A DNA stretch of 64,000 nt, from assembly GCF_031886125.1 (NCBI RefSeq), contig NZ_CP119391.1, positions 1,860,001-1,924,000 on the forward strand. Direction: 5' to 3'. The stretch is from Halomonas piscis. GTDB taxonomy: Bacteria; Pseudomonadota; Gammaproteobacteria; Pseudomonadales; Halomonadaceae. The notes below the pieces were generated by a model. That model ran no database searches, had not been told where the DNA came from, and saw nothing but the letters and a program-made list of their open reading frames with translations. Both the position numbers and the translations under genes were made by a program. The stretch's first letter is position 1. Every line of letters begins with the position of its first letter. Shown one piece after another: positions 5,546 to 15,078 of the stretch.

Positions 5546-5705
5546 CCCCAAGGGCGGGCATAAAGTGACTTGATCAGCGCTGAATGAGTCCCCAAATACG
5601 GTAGGATTCTCACTACCTGGTGGGAGCTGACTTTAGTCAGCGACGGTAAAGCCACAAGCCTGCGGCAGGCCTCGCGGCCCGCTTTCGCGCACTGAAGTGC
5701 GCTTA

Positions 5706-5986
5706 TATGGACCCGTCCTGTTGTGCAAGCTAGAAGCAACCACGCATAAAGGTGAGGACTGCACGCTTATATCCGGCCTGTTGGTGGCACCTGCGGTGCC
5801 TGGCCCTGATGGAATACGCGCTCTCTGCTCTGATCTCCCACTCGGCCTCGCCATGGGCCTGCGCACTTCACAGAGTGACAGAGAGTCGGTCTGACCCGTT
5901 ATGCCATCGAAGCATCTCGCCTGCGCAACCTCGGGGTTGGGTAACTTATCGTATGCTGAACGATCTCGCCTGTTTATTCGGTATCA
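5706..5986 (-). ncRNA. Candidate bridge/seek RNA region of IS1111-like copy 1
   Basis: Non-coding end of the element between the transposase stop and the terminal inverted repeat, read on the minus strand. In IS1111-group elements the guide RNA that pairs with target and donor DNA is known to be encoded downstream of the transposase, and this segment is in that position. It is about 280 bp and rich in short self-complementary stretches. It is well conserved with copy 2 except for a divergent block near 5951-5975, right after the stop codon, and a smaller one near 5786-5800. RNA boundaries and loops were not folded, so the call rests on position and conservation only. Confidence 0.45.
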
Positions 5987-6265
5987 TTAAGCGGCCTCCT
6001 GCGGCTGGTAGCGGCGCTCATGGGCCAATAGCGACCAGCAAATCCGCGCCATCTTGTTTGCCAGGGCCACAATGGCCTTGCGTTGTCCAAGACGCGCCGC
6101 TAATGAGCAGGCCCAGCGGGACAGCCGGTCGGGCTGTTCCTGGCGCTGAAACTGGCGTAATGCCGCGCGGGCACCGTGCACCAGCTGCCGTCGAACCTCG
6201 CCATTGCCGCGTTTGGTGATACCCATTAACTGATGGCGGCCACCACTGGAATGCTGGCGTGGCAC
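5987..6265 (-). pseudogene. IS110-family transposase, C-terminal fragment (split by IS5-family insertion)
   Basis: Encodes the last 92 or so residues of the IS1111-like transposase, starting at VPRQHSSGGRHQLMGITKRG and ending ERRYQPQEAA. It matches the C-terminus of the intact copy at 12633-13667 with a few substitutions. The rest of the gene lies at 7097-7852 on the other side of the inserted element. Deleting the insertion and one copy of the duplicated target would restore an uninterrupted frame (GLVPRQHSS), so the IS5-family insertion is the only visible lesion. As it stands it has no start codon or ribosome site of its own. Confidence 0.88.
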
Positions 6266-6330
6266 TAGGGTGTGTTAACAATCATTAGTTTCGTTTAAAC
6301 TGATTTAGTATTCATAGATTTTGGTGGGCC

Positions 6331-6699
6331 ATGAGTCGGTTGAAGTTACGCGATGATCAGTGGGAGCGAATCGAGCACCTGCTCCCCGGCAAAGCCTCAG
6401 ACTGTGGGGTAACTGCCAAGGACAATCGCCTGTTCGTGGAAGCCGTGCTCTGGATCGCTCGGACCGGCGCCCCGTGGCGTGATCTTCCCGAATCTTTTGG
6501 GCGCTGGCACACCGTCTACATGCGGTATAACCGTTGGTCACGAAAGGGCGTTTGGCAGCGTATTTTTGACACAGTAGCCGACGATCCCGATCTAGAGCAG
6601 CTGATGATCGACGGTAGCATCGTCAGGGTGCACCAGCATGGAGCGTCAAAAAAAACACGCAAGACGTCGAAGCCATGGGCAAATCTCGAGGCGGATTGA
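6331..6699 (+). CDS. IS5-family transposase, frame A
   Basis: The 122-residue N-terminal part of an IS5/IS427-type DDE transposase. It contains the DUF4096-like start (LRDDQWERIEHLLPG), the WIARTGAPWRDLPESFGRW motif and the first catalytic Asp in LMIDGSIVRVHQHGA. The frame continues to 6699, but family similarity passes into the -1 frame near the A8 run at 6648-6655 (codons for the SKKT region). That run is a plausible slippery site for programmed -1 frameshifting, giving a fused transposase of about 250 residues with frame B. Frame A alone lacks the other two catalytic residues. Confidence 0.88.
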   Translation: MSRLKLRDDQWERIEHLLPGKASDCGVTAKDNRLFVEAVLWIARTGAPWRDLPESFGRWHTVYMRYNRWSRKGVWQRIFDTVADDPDLEQLMIDGSIVRVHQHGASKKTRKTSKPWANLEAD

Positions 6700-7082
6700 G
6701 CACCAAAATTCATGCCGCAGTCGATGCGTTAGGTAACCCAGTACGATTGGTTCTCACACCGGGCCAGGCGTCGGAGTATGGTGCTGCTCCCGCTCTACTG
6801 GAAGGTTTTTCCCCGCAAGCAGTGCTGGGCGACAAGGGGTATGACTCCACTGCTCTGCGGGACATGATTCAGGCCGCAGGTGCCGAGTCGGTGATTCCTC
6901 CGAAAAAGAATCGTTTGGCGCGCATTGAAGTAGACTGGCACTGTTACCAAGATCGCAATCTGGTGGAGAGGTTCTTTCAGAAAATCAAGAAGTTCCGGCG
7001 GTTATCTACACGCTATGAGCGACTGGCAAGAAACTACCAGTCACTCCTCTGCCTCGTGTCAGCCGCCATATGGCTGGCCTAA
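6675..7082 (+). CDS. IS5-family transposase, frame B
   Basis: C-terminal part of the DDE transposase, in the -1 frame relative to frame A. It carries the second catalytic Asp in VLGDKGYDS and the catalytic Glu in NLVERFFQKIKKFRRLSTRYE, the Y(2)R(3)E(6)K-type signature of this family. The coordinates are those of the open Met-to-stop frame; the functional product is probably made by frameshifting from frame A at the A8 run (6648-6655), not from this Met. The frame ends 14 bases before the right end of the element. No disabling mutation is visible, so the element may still be active. Confidence 0.88.
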   Translation: MGKSRGGLSTKIHAAVDALGNPVRLVLTPGQASEYGAAPALLEGFSPQAVLGDKGYDSTALRDMIQAAGAESVIPPKKNRLARIEVDWHCYQDRNLVERFFQKIKKFRRLSTRYERLARNYQSLLCLVSAAIWLA

Positions 7083-7096
7083 TTGTTAACGCCCCC

Positions 7097-7852
7097 TAGC
7101 CCTAACGAGGCGCTGAACTGACGCCCGTTGGGAAACCGTGCCGGATCGCCCAGGTGGCTGAACAACAGCGTGGCGTTGATCGGGCCGATGCCGGGCAGAC
7201 TCATCAGCCGCTGCATGTCGGCTGACGCTTTGGCCTGTCGCTGCAGCCGCTTGTCATAGCGCGCGATCCGCGCATCGTTCTCGAGCCACTGGTCGAGCAG
7301 GTCGTTCAGCAGGGTGTAGAGCTCTTCACCCAGCCGCGCCCGTTGCTCGTCCAGGCGTTCACGGATCACACCTTGGCGTATTACCGCATGCCCTTGCGAC
7401 ACGATCAGGCCAAACTCTCCCAGTAGGCCGCGCAGCTCATTGCCGATGGCAGTGCGCTCGCGCACTAACCGGCTGCGCACCCGGTGCACCGCTTGCAGGG
7501 ATTGTTGCGCTTCTGTCTTGATCGTCACCCGAGGCGTCGCCGGGCGTGCTGCGGCCTCGGCGATAGCCGCGGCATCGCGTGCATCATTCTTGTGGCCCAG
7601 CACGAAGGGCTTGACCGCCTGCGGCGGCAGTAGTTCTGCCTCATGGCCCAGGGCGCGAATTTCGCGTGCCCAATAATGGGCCGAGCCGCACGCCTCCATG
7701 GCGATGCGGCAAGGCGGCAGCTGGGCCAGCGTGAGCCGCAGCTGATCACGCTTAACCTGCTTGTTAAAGATGTTATGGCCGCGCGCATCGGCGGCGTGCA
7801 ACTGAAAAACGTGTTTGGCCAGGTCAATGCCGACAATGCTAATCTGTTTCAT
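7097..7852 (-). pseudogene. IS110-family transposase, N-terminal fragment (split by IS5-family insertion)
   Basis: Encodes residues 1 to about 252 of the IS1111-like transposase: the RuvC-like DEDD domain (SIVGIDLAKHVFQLHAADA with its first catalytic Asp, then MEACGSAHYW and GHKNDARDAAAIAEAA), the coiled-coil spacer, and the helix-hairpin segment LPGIGPINATLLFSHLG. It then runs into the inserted element after QFSASLGL and stops a few codons later. The ATG at 7852 has a strong AGGAGG-type ribosome site. The conserved C-terminal motif lies beyond the insertion, so the fragment should be inactive unless the insertion is excised precisely. Confidence 0.9.
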
Positions 7853-7991
7853 GGATGGGCCCTCCTTTCAGATGCCGTCAGTGTTCTGTGCACTGCTAGC
7901 TAGATGTCATATCCAGCTTGGCACAGAAGGACGGGTCCATCCCATTTCCCACCCTTTCCCCGGCCCTTTCGGAAAGATTGGGCCACAACAA

Positions 7992-9126: not shown

Positions 9127-10506
9127 TCACGCCGGCGCCTCGCTCATGGGACGGGCCAGGCCGTGCTTTTCCATCAGGCGATAGATTGTGACCCGCGAAA
9201 CGTCCAGCTCTCGGGCCGCCGCCTGAACCCTGTGCGCGTTGCGCTCCAGCGCGGCGACCAGGGCATCCCGCTCCGCCTCGTCCCGGGCCTGGCAGAGGGA
9301 CAGGCCGGAGGCCGGGCCCTGGCGCCGCTCGATGCCCAGATCCTCGGGCTGAATAAGGCGGTTGTCGCACATGACCATTGCCCGACGCACGCGGTTGATC
9401 AGCTCCCGAATGTTCCCCGGCCAGGAGTAGTCGCGCATGGCTTGCAGGGCGTCGCGAGAAAACCCCTTCAGGCGACCGGGCTTTTCGCGAATGAAACGCT
9501 CGAAGAAATAGCGGGCAAGAATCTCGATATCCTCCGGATGGTCCCGCAGGGCCGGCACCTTGACCTGCAGCACGTTCAGGCGGTGGTAAAGGTCCTCGCG
9601 GAACCGCCCCTCCCGGACCGCCTCCTCGAGGTTGACGTGGGTCGCCGCCAGGATGCGCACATCGACGGCGATCTCGCTCAGTCCTCCCACCCGCTGGATC
9701 CGTCGGGTCTCGAGAAAACGCAGCAGGTTAACCTGCTGCTCCAGCGGCAAGTCGCCTATCTCGTCGAGAAACAGCGTCCCGGCGTCGGCCGCTTCGATAC
9801 GGCCGATCTTGCGCTGGGCGGCGCCGGTAAAGGCGCCCTTCTCATGGCCGAAGAGCTCCGACTGAATCAGCTGGTCCGGCAAGGCGCCGCAGTTGATGGC
9901 GTGAAACACGCCGGAGACGCGGGGCGAGCGCTCGTGGATCGCCACGGCGGTCAGCTCCTTGCCCGTGCCCGATTCGCCGTTGATAAGCACCGGGGCATCC
10001 ACGGCCGCCACCTTGCGAATCGTCTGGAACAGCGTGCGCATGGCCGGCGCCGTGCCGACCATCTCGTATTCGGCGATATCGGCCGACAAAGGGGCCGTAC
10101 GGCGATGCAGCGCCAGCTCCTGCCGCTGAAGCTGTACCAGCGCCGCCGCGCGCCTCATCAGATAGCCCAGCTCCGCGCCGTCAACGCCCGGCTCGATAAA
10201 GCCGTGGCAGAGCGTTGCCACCAGGCTGCGCCTGGCGGCATCTTCCAGGGCGTCGTCCGGCAGGATGGCAAACCACAGACAGCGGCTGTGCAGGAGCAGC
10301 GACTCCAGCTGGCGCAGCGGGTCGCCTGTCATACCGTCGAGCTGAACCAGGCCCACAAGGCACGCCTCGTCATCCTCAAGACAGCGGCTGGTGAACGGCG
10401 CCTTCGGCCGAGTTACCGTCCAGCCGAGCGCCTCGAGCCGGGCCACCAGCGACCCGAGCTTTTCCGGCGCCTCGGCCACCAGCCAGCAACGTTGATCCCG
10501 TTCCAT
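9127..10506 (-). CDS. Sigma-54-dependent transcriptional activator (VpsR-like)
   Basis: A 459-residue enhancer-binding protein. Residues 1 to about 140 form a receiver-like domain without an evident phosphorylatable Asp pocket. This resembles VpsR/FleQ-type N-termini more than a classical receiver. The AAA+ domain (about 150-385) has Walker A GESGTGKE, the sigma-54-contacting GAFTGA loop, Walker B LFLDEIGDL and the arginine-finger region FREDLYHRL. The C-terminus has a Fis-type helix-turn-helix (HRVQAAARELDVSRVTIYRL). It should open sigma-54 promoters, possibly for surface polysaccharide or motility genes by analogy with VpsR. No target operon is adjacent, so the regulon is unknown. Confidence 0.87.
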   Translation of the reverse strand: MERDQRCWLVAEAPEKLGSLVARLEALGWTVTRPKAPFTSRCLEDDEACLVGLVQLDGMTGDPLRQLESLLLHSRCLWFAILPDDALEDAARRSLVATLCHGFIEPGVDGAELGYLMRRAAALVQLQRQELALHRRTAPLSADIAEYEMVGTAPAMRTLFQTIRKVAAVDAPVLINGESGTGKELTAVAIHERSPRVSGVFHAINCGALPDQLIQSELFGHEKGAFTGAAQRKIGRIEAADAGTLFLDEIGDLPLEQQVNLLRFLETRRIQRVGGLSEIAVDVRILAATHVNLEEAVREGRFREDLYHRLNVLQVKVPALRDHPEDIEILARYFFERFIREKPGRLKGFSRDALQAMRDYSWPGNIRELINRVRRAMVMCDNRLIQPEDLGIERRQGPASGLSLCQARDEAERDALVAALERNAHRVQAAARELDVSRVTIYRLMEKHGLARPMSEAPA

Positions 10507-10699
10507 TGCTACTCACCTCATCTTTACGATCGGCGGCGGGTCAGCAAGGCCCTGGCTGGAACCGTCGCCGGGTCCCCCATGCCATAACGCTGGCGCCAAT
10601 GGCGGCCGCCGAGCCTATGGCTCAGTCTTGTTATTTGGGCCTTGCCATGATAATGGCAGAGGCGGCAGCGCTTGCGCGCCCTTCGTTTAGACGGGACGG

Positions 10700-11129
10700 G
10701 CGACATTGGCAGTGCATGGGGGCGGGGGCACCGGCGGTAAAACCCGAGATGGCCACGCATCGCTCGCCATGACGCGGCGGGGACGGTGGCGCTTGCCATG
10801 GCGCGGGCGGGAAGCGGTGTTGATCCCACTACCGTCATCGCGAGGCGCGTAAGCAACGCGGCGATCTCGTGGGGGCGGGGCACCGGCGGTAAAACCCGAG
10901 ATGGCCGCGCTTCGCTCGCCATGACGCGACGGGGACGGTGGCGCTTGCCATGACGCGGGCGGGAAGCGGGGTTGATCCCACTACCGGTCATCGCGCGGCG
11001 CGTAAGCAACGCGGCGATCTCGTGGGTACGGGGCTCCGGCGGTAAAACCCGAGATGGCAACGCTTCGCTCGCCATGACGCGGCGGGGACGGTGGCGCTTG
11101 CCATGACGCGGGCGGGGACGGTGGCGCTT
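10700..11129. repeat. 153-bp tandem repeat array (about three units) beside IS1111-like copy 2
   Basis: Second array of the repeat seen at 5.24-5.55 kb. The motif GCGATCTCGTGGG recurs at 10861 and 11014, exactly 153 bp apart, with a further half unit before it and a shortened one after. Each unit holds an imperfect palindrome with arms beginning GTCATCGCGAGGCGCG and ending GCTCGCCATGAC. The array ends where the IS1111-like element begins, near 11130. The stretch 10507-10700 contains only the divergent promoter region of the sigma-54 activator and no gene. Confidence 0.82.
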
Positions 11130-11158
11130 GCGGCCTGCTTTCGCGCACTAAAGTGCGC

Positions 11159-11442
11159 TTATATGGACCCGTCCTGTTGTGCAAGCCAGAAGCAACAACG
11201 CATAAGAGTGAGGACTGCACGCTTATATCCGGCCTATTGATGGCACTTGCCGTGCCTGGCCCTGATGGAATACGCGCTCTCTGCTCTGATCTCCCACTCG
11301 GCCTCGTGATGGGCCTGCGCACTTTACAGAGTGACAGAAAGCCGGTCTGACCCGTTATGCCATCGAAGCATCTTGCCTGCGCAACCTCGGGGTTGGGTAA
11401 CTTATCGCATGCTAAGCTATATTCCCTGTTTGTTCGGTATCA
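11159..11442 (-). ncRNA. Candidate bridge/seek RNA region, tandem copy (outermost)
   Basis: First of three identical non-coding ends of IS1111-like copy 2, lying downstream of a truncated transposase 3' end. Its position relative to the stop codon matches where the guide RNA is encoded in this group. Whether a truncated unit is transcribed is unknown: it depends on read-through from the intact gene or on a promoter inside the unit. Confidence 0.38.
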
Positions 11443-11753
11443 TCAAGCGGCCTCCTGCGGCTGATAGCGCCGTTCATGGGCCAATAGCGACCAGCAAATC
11501 CGCGCCATCTTGTTCGCCAGGGCCACAATGGCCTTGCGTTGCCCAAGACGCGCCGCTAACGAGCAGGCCCAACGGGACAGCCGGTCGGGATGTTCCTGAC
11601 GTTGGAACTGGCGTAATGCCGCGCGGGCACCGTGCACCAACTGCTTTCGAACCTCGCCATTGCCGCGTTTGGTGATCCCCATCAACTGGTTGCGACCCCC
11701 GCTGGAATGCTGGCGTGGCACTAGCCCCAACGAGGCGCTGAACTGACGTCCGT
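11443..11753 (-). pseudogene. Truncated IS110-family transposase 3' end (tandem copy)
   Basis: Encodes only the C-terminal portion of the transposase, from about GRQFSASLGLVPRQHSSGG to QPQEAA, identical to the end of the intact copy. The frame opens a few codons into the preceding IS tip, giving a hybrid start MLLLACTTGRVHI without a recognisable ribosome site. It lacks the DEDD catalytic domain. Confidence 0.85.
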
Positions 11754-12037
11754 TTATATGGACCCGTCCTGTTGTGCAAGCCAGAAGCAACAACGCATAA
11801 GAGTGAGGACTGCACGCTTATATCCGGCCTATTGATGGCACTTGCCGTGCCTGGCCCTGATGGAATACGCGCTCTCTGCTCTGATCTCCCACTCGGCCTC
11901 GTGATGGGCCTGCGCACTTTACAGAGTGACAGAAAGCCGGTCTGACCCGTTATGCCATCGAAGCATCTTGCCTGCGCAACCTCGGGGTTGGGTAACTTAT
12001 CGCATGCTAAGCTATATTCCCTGTTTGTTCGGTATCA
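11754..12037 (-). ncRNA. Candidate bridge/seek RNA region, tandem copy (middle)
   Basis: Second of the three identical non-coding ends. It contains the internal junction between two IS tips. As with the outer copy, transcription is unproven and the call is by position only. Confidence 0.38.
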
Positions 12038-12348
12038 TCAAGCGGCCTCCTGCGGCTGATAGCGCCGTTCATGGGCCAATAGCGACCAGCAAATCCGCGC
12101 CATCTTGTTCGCCAGGGCCACAATGGCCTTGCGTTGCCCAAGACGCGCCGCTAACGAGCAGGCCCAACGGGACAGCCGGTCGGGATGTTCCTGACGTTGG
12201 AACTGGCGTAATGCCGCGCGGGCACCGTGCACCAACTGCTTTCGAACCTCGCCATTGCCGCGTTTGGTGATCCCCATCAACTGGTTGCGACCCCCGCTGG
12301 AATGCTGGCGTGGCACTAGCCCCAACGAGGCGCTGAACTGACGTCCGT
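12038..12348 (-). pseudogene. Truncated IS110-family transposase 3' end (tandem copy)
   Basis: Second truncated copy of the transposase C-terminus, identical to the one at 11443-11753 and to the end of the intact gene. No catalytic domain and no convincing start. Confidence 0.85.
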
Positions 12349-12632
12349 TTATATGGACCCGTCCTGTTGTGCAAGCCAGAAGCAACAACGCATAAGAGTG
12401 AGGACTGCACGCTTATATCCGGCCTATTGATGGCACTTGCCGTGCCTGGCCCTGATGGAATACGCGCTCTCTGCTCTGATCTCCCACTCGGCCTCGTGAT
12501 GGGCCTGCGCACTTTACAGAGTGACAGAAAGCCGGTCTGACCCGTTATGCCATCGAAGCATCTTGCCTGCGCAACCTCGGGGTTGGGTAACTTATCGCAT
12601 GCTAAGCTATATTCCCTGTTTGTTCGGTATCA
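12349..12632 (-). ncRNA. Candidate bridge/seek RNA region of the intact IS1111-like copy 2
   Basis: Non-coding end directly downstream of the intact transposase gene, between its TGA and the inverted repeat at about 12353. Known biology of the IS1111 group places the guide RNA here. Compared with copy 1, the block at about 12597-12622 (CATGCTAAGCTATATTCCC against TATGCTGAACGATCTCGCC) is the most divergent stretch, in an otherwise well conserved segment. That is what a guide loop with a different target would look like. Confidence 0.48.
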
Positions 12633-13667
12633 TCAAGCGGCCTCCTGCGGCTGATAGCGCCGTTCATGGGCCAATAGCGACCAGCAAATCCGCGCCATCT
12701 TGTTCGCCAGGGCCACAATGGCCTTGCGTTGCCCAAGACGCGCCGCTAACGAGCAGGCCCAACGGGACAGCCGGTCGGGATGTTCCTGACGTTGGAACTG
12801 GCGTAATGCCGCGCGGGCACCGTGCACCAACTGCTTTCGAACCTCGCCATTGCCGCGTTTGGTGATCCCCATCAACTGGTTGCGACCCCCGCTGGAATGC
12901 TGGCGTGGCACTAGCCCCAACGAGGCGCTGAACTGACGTCCGTTGGGGAATCGCGCCGGATCGCCCAGATGGCTGAACAACAGCGTCGCATTGATCGGGC
13001 CGATGCCGGGCAGACTCATCAGCCGCTGCATGTCATCTGATGCCCTGGCCAGACGCTGCAGACGCTTGTCATAGCGCGCGATCCGGGCATCGTTCTCGAG
13101 CCATTGATCGAGCAGGTCGTTCAGCAGGGTGTAGAGTTCTTCCCCCAGCCGCGCCCGTTGCTCGTCCAGCCGCTCACGAATAACGCCCTGGCGTATCACC
13201 GCGTGCCCCTGCGACACGATTAGACCAAACTCGCCCAGCAGGCCGCGCAGCTCGTTGCCGACGGCGGTGCGTTCGCGCACTAACCGACTGCGTACTCGGT
13301 GCACTGCTTGCAGGGACTGTTGTGCTTCCGTCTTGATCGTCACTCGAGGCGTGGCCGGGCGCGCCGCAGCCTCGGCGATAGCCGCGGCATCGCGCGCATC
13401 GTTCTTGTGGCCCAGCACGAAGGGCTTGACCGCCTGCGGTGGCAGTAGCTCGGCCTCATGGCCCAGCGTGCCAATGTCTCTCGCCCAGTAATGAGCGGAG
13501 CCGCACGCTTCCATGGCGACGTGGCAAGGCGGAATTTGGGCCAGCGTCAAGCGTAACTTCTCTCGCCGGACTTGCTTGCTGAATACTTTGTGACCGTGCG
13601 CATCCACGGCATGCAGTTGAAAAACGTGTTTCGCCAGGTCAATGCCTATAATGCTAATCTGTTTCAT
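12633..13667 (-). CDS. IS110-family (IS1111 group) transposase, intact
   Basis: A 344-residue DEDD-type transposase/recombinase. The RuvC-like domain starts at SIIGIDLAKHVFQLHAVDAH and includes MEACGSAHYW and the GHKNDARDAAAIAEAA motif. A coiled-coil spacer follows, then LPGIGPINATLLFSHLG and the C-terminal transposase domain with QFSASLGLVPRQHSSGG and ITKRGNGEVRKQLVHGAR. Enzymes of this family recombine DNA under the direction of an RNA encoded in the element's non-coding end. The ATG at 13667 is preceded by AGGAGG with 8-base spacing. All expected motifs are present, so it should be functional and could also act on the truncated ends beside it. Confidence 0.93.
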   Translation of the reverse strand: MKQISIIGIDLAKHVFQLHAVDAHGHKVFSKQVRREKLRLTLAQIPPCHVAMEACGSAHYWARDIGTLGHEAELLPPQAVKPFVLGHKNDARDAAAIAEAAARPATPRVTIKTEAQQSLQAVHRVRSRLVRERTAVGNELRGLLGEFGLIVSQGHAVIRQGVIRERLDEQRARLGEELYTLLNDLLDQWLENDARIARYDKRLQRLARASDDMQRLMSLPGIGPINATLLFSHLGDPARFPNGRQFSASLGLVPRQHSSGGRNQLMGITKRGNGEVRKQLVHGARAALRQFQRQEHPDRLSRWACSLAARLGQRKAIVALANKMARICWSLLAHERRYQPQEAA

Positions 13668-13805
13668 GGATGGATCCTCCTTCACCGATGCCGTCAGTGT
13701 TCTGTGCACTGCTGGCTAGATGTTATATCCAGCTTGGCACAGAAGGACGGGTCCATCCCATTTCCCACCCTTTCCTCAGCCCTTTCGGGAGGGTTGGGGC
13801 ACCAC

Positions 13806-13846
13806 AAAAAAACGGCCACCCAGCGAATACGCCAAGTGGCCGTTTT
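13806..13846 (-). terminator. Rho-independent terminator of tRNA-Pro
   Basis: A stem with arms AAAACGGCCAC and GTGGCCGTTTT around a loop of about 19 bases. On the minus strand it is followed by a run of seven T, 14 bases after the CCA end of the tRNA. The loop shares ATACGCC and AAG with the terminator at 7992-8029. Confidence 0.85.
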
Positions 13847-13859
13847 CTCTACATATTTC

Positions 13860-13936
13860 TGGTCGGAGCGACAGGATTCGAACCTGCGACCTTTGCAACC
13901 CCATTGCAACGCGCTACCAAGCTGCGCCACGCTCCG
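13860..13936 (-). tRNA. tRNA-Pro (anticodon GGG)
   Basis: A 77-nt tRNA with CCA encoded. On the minus strand the acceptor arm is CGGAGCG pairing with CGCTCCG, the D stem is GCGC/GCGC, and the anticodon stem TTGCA/TGCAA holds the 7-base loop ATGGGGT, giving anticodon GGG. The T arm is GCAGG, TTCGAAT, CCTGT, and the end is ACCA. It reads CCC proline codons. The IS1111-like element sits immediately downstream of its terminator. Confidence 0.96.
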
Positions 13937-14049
13937 GCTCTTTGGGCTCGTCCCGGGCCTTGGCTCCAGGACGAGGCGTATAATAGCGCGTTTGGCCGCA
14001 GATGAAAAGCTTTTTTTGCGCTTTTTTTCAGGCGCTTGGCCGGGCGGCG

Positions 14050-14563: not shown

Positions 14564-15019
14564 TTAAGAATCATCTGCTTTGCAGCCGGATGGCAACAAG
14601 CTCTTATCAGCATCACTACCACTACTCCATGAACACTCCCAACCGTTGCTGGGGTCAGAATTGACAGGTTTAATATACATCCTTGACCCATTAAGGGAGC
14701 TATTTTTCTTAAATTTTGCCTCAATGGCGTTATCAGCACTATAAATTACTTTCTTGATGTATTTCCCTGATATATCTCCTTCTGCAATTTCCACATTTTC
14801 ACCAGGCATTTCCCCGTGAAGCGCATAATATTCGCCAATATCGGCACGCACGCCAGAGGTAATCGTCAGCGCTTCGCTGGCCTGGGAGCGGGCGACGTAG
14901 TTCTGGTACTGCGGGATGGCGATCGCCGCCAGCACGCCGATAATGGCGACGACGATCATCAGCTCGATCAGAGTAAAACCGCCCTGCCTCTGGGCTTGTG
15001 CGGAGGTAGCGTTGTTCAT
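14564..15019 (-). CDS. pilA: Type IV major pilin (PilA-like)
   Basis: A 151-residue prepilin. The short leader [14 protein letters not shown] is cut after Gly by PilD (encoded at 18247), and the mature protein starts with [20 protein letters not shown], with Glu5 present. The C-terminal part has a Cys pair (WECSW...PSGCKADD) that would form the D-loop disulfide. The start at 15019 is preceded by AAGGAGC; a longer frame from 15070 has no ribosome site and would put extra residues before the leader. It is divergent from pilB, sharing an intergenic region of about 200 bp, as in Pseudomonas. It forms the pilus fibre for twitching, adhesion and DNA uptake. Confidence 0.92.
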
Positions 15020-15078
15020 GAAAAGCTCCTTGAGTTTGTTCGGCCCGGGCGGCGTTCGCTTCGGGTACACTTCGTTAC

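Follow-up and report, generated by a model that had tools for sequence, protein, structure and literature searches.

Positions 11160..13763 of the window (the whole 64,000-nucleotide stretch of DNA analysed here) are occupied by an IS1111-type element of 2604 bp, whose transposase gene lies on the minus strand and whose termini, TATATGG on the right at 11160 and CCCATTT on the left at 13763, were placed by comparison with other copies and with empty sites. The intact transposase (12633..13667 from its ATG, minus strand) has Pfam matches to DEDD_Tnp_IS110 and Transposase_20 (E-values 4e-18 and 7.4e-23, respectively), and its frame is open, with a longer version reaching 13709 from an upstream GTG. 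The subterminal inverted repeats are GGACGGGTCCAT, with CCCATTT outside them on the left and TAT on the right; about 3 bp outside the right subterminal repeat is usual in IS1111-type elements. The 7-bp extension on the left is the IS1111 rule described in the main text of Siddiquee et al., 2024 (PMC11187229), and the 344 residues counted from the ATG at 13667 fall within the 330–350 aa range given there for IS1111-type transposases. Non-coding DNA amounts to 283 bp downstream of the gene versus 96 bp upstream of its ATG. The flanks and the empty sites identify a left target half-site, a REP-like palindrome, beside the right end (11140..11159) and a right target half-site, CCCAC, beside the left end (13764..13768). 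An earlier note on this DNA had called the element IS1111-like, and its domains, subterminal repeats, downstream non-coding region and target agree: it is an ordinary member of that group, and relatives of 68–81% protein identity were found within the same family. A tRNA-Pro (ggg) gene lies about 100 bp past the left end (13860-13936), followed by a frame judged by eye to be pilin-like (14564-15070, minus strand). On the element's left side as the window is read, it is adjoined by a 153-bp tandem repeat at 10717-11116 (2.6 copies, 94% matches).

The right end of this element is present as three tandem units on the minus strand. The outermost, unit 1 (11159..11753), has its terminus at the natural target half-site GCACTAAAGTGCGCT; unit 2 (11754..12348) follows, and unit 3 (12349..12943) runs on into the intact transposase gene. 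As the earlier note had claimed, the three units at 11159-12943 are identical to one another over 595 bp, each comprising the final 103 transposase codons and stop followed by the whole 283-bp non-coding end, and they stand beside a transposase whose full frame is open. The length of the window copy is accordingly 1414 + 2 x 595 bp, where uninterrupted single-unit copies measure 1413–1414 bp. At joint 1 (11740..11761) and, with the same sequence, at joint 2 (12335..12356), the internal transposase site GAACTGACGTCCGTT is fused to the right terminus TATATGG. Identity between units extends beyond the 595 bp by 0 bp leftward and 1 bp rightward; because it ends there, the one contiguous base common to both sides of the joint is the T that precedes TATATGG, in keeping with the 1–2 bp of shared sequence first reported. 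The triplication is far beyond chance. Genome-wide, the joint word CCGTTTATATGGACC was found only at these two joints, inside the array.

The host genome is a single contig of 3,227,066 bp and contains at least 21 elements of this family whether counted by right end or by left part, from a census that scored 40 of 56 right-end and 40 of 123 left-part first-look candidates. Thirteen copies are 1414 bp long, four are 1413 bp and one (L018) is 1429 bp; the remainder are two interrupted copies (L016 and one at window positions 5704-7947) and the 2604-bp array copy of the window. The array is thus found in one of 21 copies. Because the 20 other elements are single-unit, a count that includes L018 despite a doubling of 16 bp, the array is the derived state. 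The two interrupted copies, L016 (G000:C1:1341528-1343777) and window 5704-7947, belong to different subfamilies, and each has its insert at the same CTAG of the transposase gene, 30 bp from the position of the repeat joint; in the window copy the insert has DUF4096 and DDE_Tnp_1 frames, is of the IS5 type and is flanked by CTAG on either side, and the insert in L016 was placed solely by an overlapping 4-bp match.

Flanking sequences show that the target is fixed and that it is not duplicated beyond one ambiguous base. GCT precedes TATATGG at the outer right flank of all 21 copies, and the left flank is CCCAC in 19 of 20 readable copies and CCAAG in one. Most targets of the family are REP-like palindromes. 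Empty sites in the same genome read GTGCGCT directly joined to CCCAC, and unoccupied repeats consist of GCACTGAAGTGCGCT and then directly CCCAC, with one further variant. By the empty sites, therefore, the element runs from TATATGG to CCCATTT, with a single ambiguous T ahead of TATATGG, and with the right terminus so defined the repeat joint sits exactly at the element's end. The target is also present as tandem repeats at 133-bp and ~200-bp spacing, with three unoccupied sites each (L048-L053; G000:C1:1160978-1161255 and 1214007-1214419). The copy with CCAAG in place of CCCAC, L017 (G000:C1:3089185-3090601), is 94% identical and is perhaps a natural off-target insertion.

Comparison with the dispersed copies bears on the history of the array. 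One single-unit copy, L004, is identical to the array units over all 595 bases and over the rest of the element too; each of the remaining 19 differs from the unit, and 12 dispersed copies differ from it at 0–3 of 595 bases. Because dispersed copies are this close, identity of the units is by itself no sign of a recent event, as had been proposed; nor does it point to homogenisation, the other proposal, since some dispersed copies resemble one another as closely as the units do. All three units have a single haplotype, that of L004, which indicates local duplication rather than several insertions by different copies. That haplotype, together with the recurrence of the same joint, led us to reject independent insertions as the source. 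On the sequences compared, the array most plausibly formed from a single copy that had already made its last move.

Each unit also carries a complete predicted seekRNA core, a hairpin in which two guides, GUAAAGUGCGC and GUGGGAG, would face each other in an internal loop; by fold and alignment it lies at 11273..11347 in unit 1 and, with identical sequence, at 11868..11942 in unit 2 and 12463..12537 in unit 3 (all minus strand). Thirteen non-coding ends, four of them from this genome, align as conserved blocks around one short variable segment, which resembles the element's own target half-site in most relatives. This putative left-guide segment reads AAAGTGCGC here, AGCCGG in L081, AAGCTC in L076, AAGATG in L085 and AAGCTG in L099. 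Over 10 guide/target pairs, not all of them independent given how closely related some of the relatives are, the longest matches sum to 62, versus 41.2 after shuffling, and 5 of 100,000 shuffles scored as high. The match is 10 nt in each of the two rows from this genome, which represent its two subfamilies, and 6, 4, 6, 6, 5, 6, 3 and 6 in the others; the two weak ones are L086, at 3 nt and with a stop inside its gene, and L082 (4 nt). Across relatives, then, the predicted left guide and the target half-site covary. GUGGGAG, the second guide, is complementary to the right half-site (it would pair with CTCCCAC), and both are nearly constant; in L085 both the second guide and the target differ, yet the changed base is unpaired. 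A consensus fold of 10 sequences (the alignment less L017, L018 and L074) gives a stem, the two guides opposed in an internal loop and a hairpin paired through GGCC/GGCC, with two-sided changes in 4 of 19 pairs. The fold of the single sequence is mildly better than those of shuffled sequences (z -1.68; 11 of 200 as good), and an Rfam scan of 10500-14000 at E up to 1 returned tRNA only. The guide/target covariation and the complete predicted core in each unit uphold the suggestion that every unit includes the guide-RNA region.

How, then, did the joint arise? We lean towards a history in which the transposase joined the right end to an internal target-like site and the duplication then grew from two units to three by ordinary recombination. 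In the first step, the transposase, holding the right terminus, would join the internal site GAACTGACGTCCGT^T of its own gene, which resembles the natural target in its left half (compare GGACTGAAGTCCGC^T). Possible routes are an exchange involving two sister copies, one copy inserting into another with homologous collapse afterwards, and a deletion that begins at a neighbouring copy's terminus; each of them would leave the same joint behind. The third unit would then come from unequal homologous crossing-over of the two 595-bp repeats. Three units require only one unusual joint, as the rest can arise by homologous recombination between 595-bp repeats. Because it starts exactly at the element's end, the array suggests that the element's enzyme joined that end to a site within the element, although a plain copying accident is also possible.

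The position of the breakpoint argues most directly for this history. It coincides with the right terminus, give or take one ambiguous T, and the chance that a random breakpoint would fall at either terminus is ~0.006 by an arithmetic estimate that allows two breakpoints, two termini and two equivalent positions in 1414 bp. Because the breakpoint is exactly the terminus defined by the empty sites, a joint made by the element is the better reading. Further, the joint has the polarity of a target-left/right-end joint, and the outer flanks of the array are a natural target pair.

The internal site itself resembles natural targets in part. GAACTGACGTCCGT^T matches GGACTGAAGTCCGCT, the half-site occupied at L009 and L020, at 12 of 15 bases, and the left flank of the window copy itself at 10 of 15. 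For both comparisons it ranks first among the 1404 top-strand positions of the element, and in the rest of the window 5 and 70 of 122,572 positions, respectively, score as well. When each position is given its highest score against nine distinct natural half-sites, the internal site ranks 1 of 1400 in the element, a score found at 13 of 122,672 positions elsewhere. Against recognition as a target, the internal site has GGGGA as its right half, which agrees with CCCAC at no position. The target spelled by the two guides agrees with the site at 6 of 15 bases, a value that 235 of 1404 positions equal or exceed, and the left guide plus T agrees at 6 of 10, equalled or exceeded by 28 of 1409. Agreement with GCAATAAATTGCGCT, the half-site of several copies, is 8 of 15, as it is for 22 of 1404 positions, and a position-weight score over 15 nt ranks the site 10th of 1400 and 8th of 303 among positions ending in T. 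Because the right half, the guides and the weight matrix fit poorly, coincidence with the terminus is the stronger leg of the argument and similarity of the site the weaker. The reciprocal product, an element without its right 595 bp or a lone left part, was also not seen among the candidates scored in the census, which gave 21 elements by right end and 21 by left part. Aberrant RNA-guided recombination, as first proposed in the earlier note, is partly supported: a joint made by the element is the better supported reading given the breakpoint, but the guides fit the internal site poorly. We regard a transposase-made origin of the tandem end as plausible but unproven.

A second doubled terminus was found in L018 (G000:C1:3216383-3217800), in which the first 16 bp are doubled so that TATATGGACCCGTCCT is present twice, with TATATGG joined to an inner T. 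Its outer flanks are the normal target pair. The inner site is not target-like, which speaks against target recognition, and L018 thus supports joining at the terminus rather than recognition of a target. It is conceivable, although we hold it only tentatively, that IS1111 recombinases recurrently join the right terminus inside their own sequence, sometimes at target-like sites, that such joints seed tandem arrays of guide-RNA modules, and that the array and L018 are two products of this behaviour.

The principal alternative is a plain illegitimate tandem duplication, by template switching at a short and interrupted similarity whose start fell at the element's end by chance, followed by homologous expansion. 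Tandem duplications with ~1-bp junctions are common in bacteria, and the poor fit of the guides to the internal site counts in favour of this alternative. The earlier statement that no long repeats exist at the breakpoints holds with a qualification that also favours such an origin, namely that 10 of 15 upstream bases agree between the two breakpoint sites, the T of the joint included. The longest contiguous run that they share is 3 bases, however, with one base at the joint itself, and an illegitimate event would have to coincide exactly with the right terminus in the array and again in L018. We consider this origin possible but less likely.

Since the genome has 21 related copies, many of which are nearly identical, an assembly artefact could be suspected, and the perfect identity of the units is what such an artefact might give. 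The genome is, however, one contig, and the absence of CCGTTTATATGGACC elsewhere in it means that the joint did not come from a confusion of copies; an assembler is also likelier to collapse such repeats than to invent them. This makes an artefact very unlikely. We give almost no credence to a functional array, in which extra seekRNA copies, transcribed from promoters rebuilt at the joints, would raise guide dosage or uncouple guide production from circle formation: all three guide modules are intact, and TTGCAC in the right end with a joint-made TATAAA 15 bp on resembles part of a circle-junction sequence, but these -35-like and -10-like words are weak and closely spaced, a sigma-70-like promoter and terminator scan of 11000-13850 found neither, and no other copy in this genome has an array. 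The idea of an amplified set of modules serving as a device is thus unsupported. Excision and circle formation by ISEc11 needed target flanks on both sides, according to the main text of PMC11187229, and the internal right ends here, lacking normal target flanks, probably do not excise. We regard the array as most likely a neutral by-product.

Other genomes provided no second example. The C-terminus of the transposase, used as a query against 21 relatives, several of them draft genomes, revealed no similar array among the matches listed, where the closest same-strand pair of C-terminal matches lay 1501 bp apart. That pair consists of two full IS1111-type copies in the same orientation (L109, G605:C1:765800-769800). 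Abutted full elements, considered as a source of arrays, were rejected on the evidence of this pair: the 1501-bp separation exceeds the ~1427-bp match between the copies, which are therefore not abutted and, we infer, sit in neighbouring target repeats. The unit DNA matched 4 of 58 genomes including its own, at one place in each of the other three, none of which has an array. Among named genomes the exact right end recurred at one locus, in Chromohalobacter sp. 296-RDG, where the sequence departs from the family soon past the right end. No relative was found among viral contigs, and plasmid-borne relatives of the transposase were all below 60% identity among the 5000 matches listed. The junction stretch had 21 plasmid matches, all from Aeromonas and none covering more than 80% of the query (23% in the best 10 of the 21). 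The titles and abstract openings listed by literature searches contained no report of tandem IS1111 ends, and the word "tandem" does not occur in the main text of either PMC11187229 or PMC11208160.

Ordinary partial tandem duplications in bacteria are head-to-tail, have minimal similarity at their junctions and grow by homologous recombination. The array shares the head-to-tail arrangement, the minimal junction similarity and probably the mode of growth, but unlike them it has one breakpoint exactly at a transposon terminus. In other respects the element resembles ISEc11, ISPa11 and ISKpn4 as presented in the main text of Siddiquee et al., 2024 (PMC11187229): it has a DEDD/Transposase_20 protein of similar length, subterminal repeats, a 7-bp left extension, a non-coding region downstream of the transposase gene and two predicted guides, arranged in the same order and directed at opposite strands of the target, and its target is REP-like, as is that of ISPa11. 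It differs from the IS1111 elements described there in carrying its right-end module as three tandem units. Placement of the predicted target guides in an internal loop recalls the IS110/IS621 bridge RNA recombinases in the main text of Durrant et al., 2024 (PMC11208160), where the recombinase can insert, excise and invert DNA between guided sites and also inserts off target. In the IS110 group the RNA lies at the left end and the subterminal repeats are very short, whereas the layout here is that of IS1111.

Tandem repetition of the right end makes this element a structurally unusual IS1111-type member. If the array arose by plain duplication, it would have little significance. If instead the transposase made it, the array would record a natural side reaction of RNA-guided recombinases, enzymes under development as editors, in which a single end was joined at a half-matching site and the guide locus was duplicated. 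Such a reaction would offer a way for guide modules to multiply and to diverge independently of the transposase.
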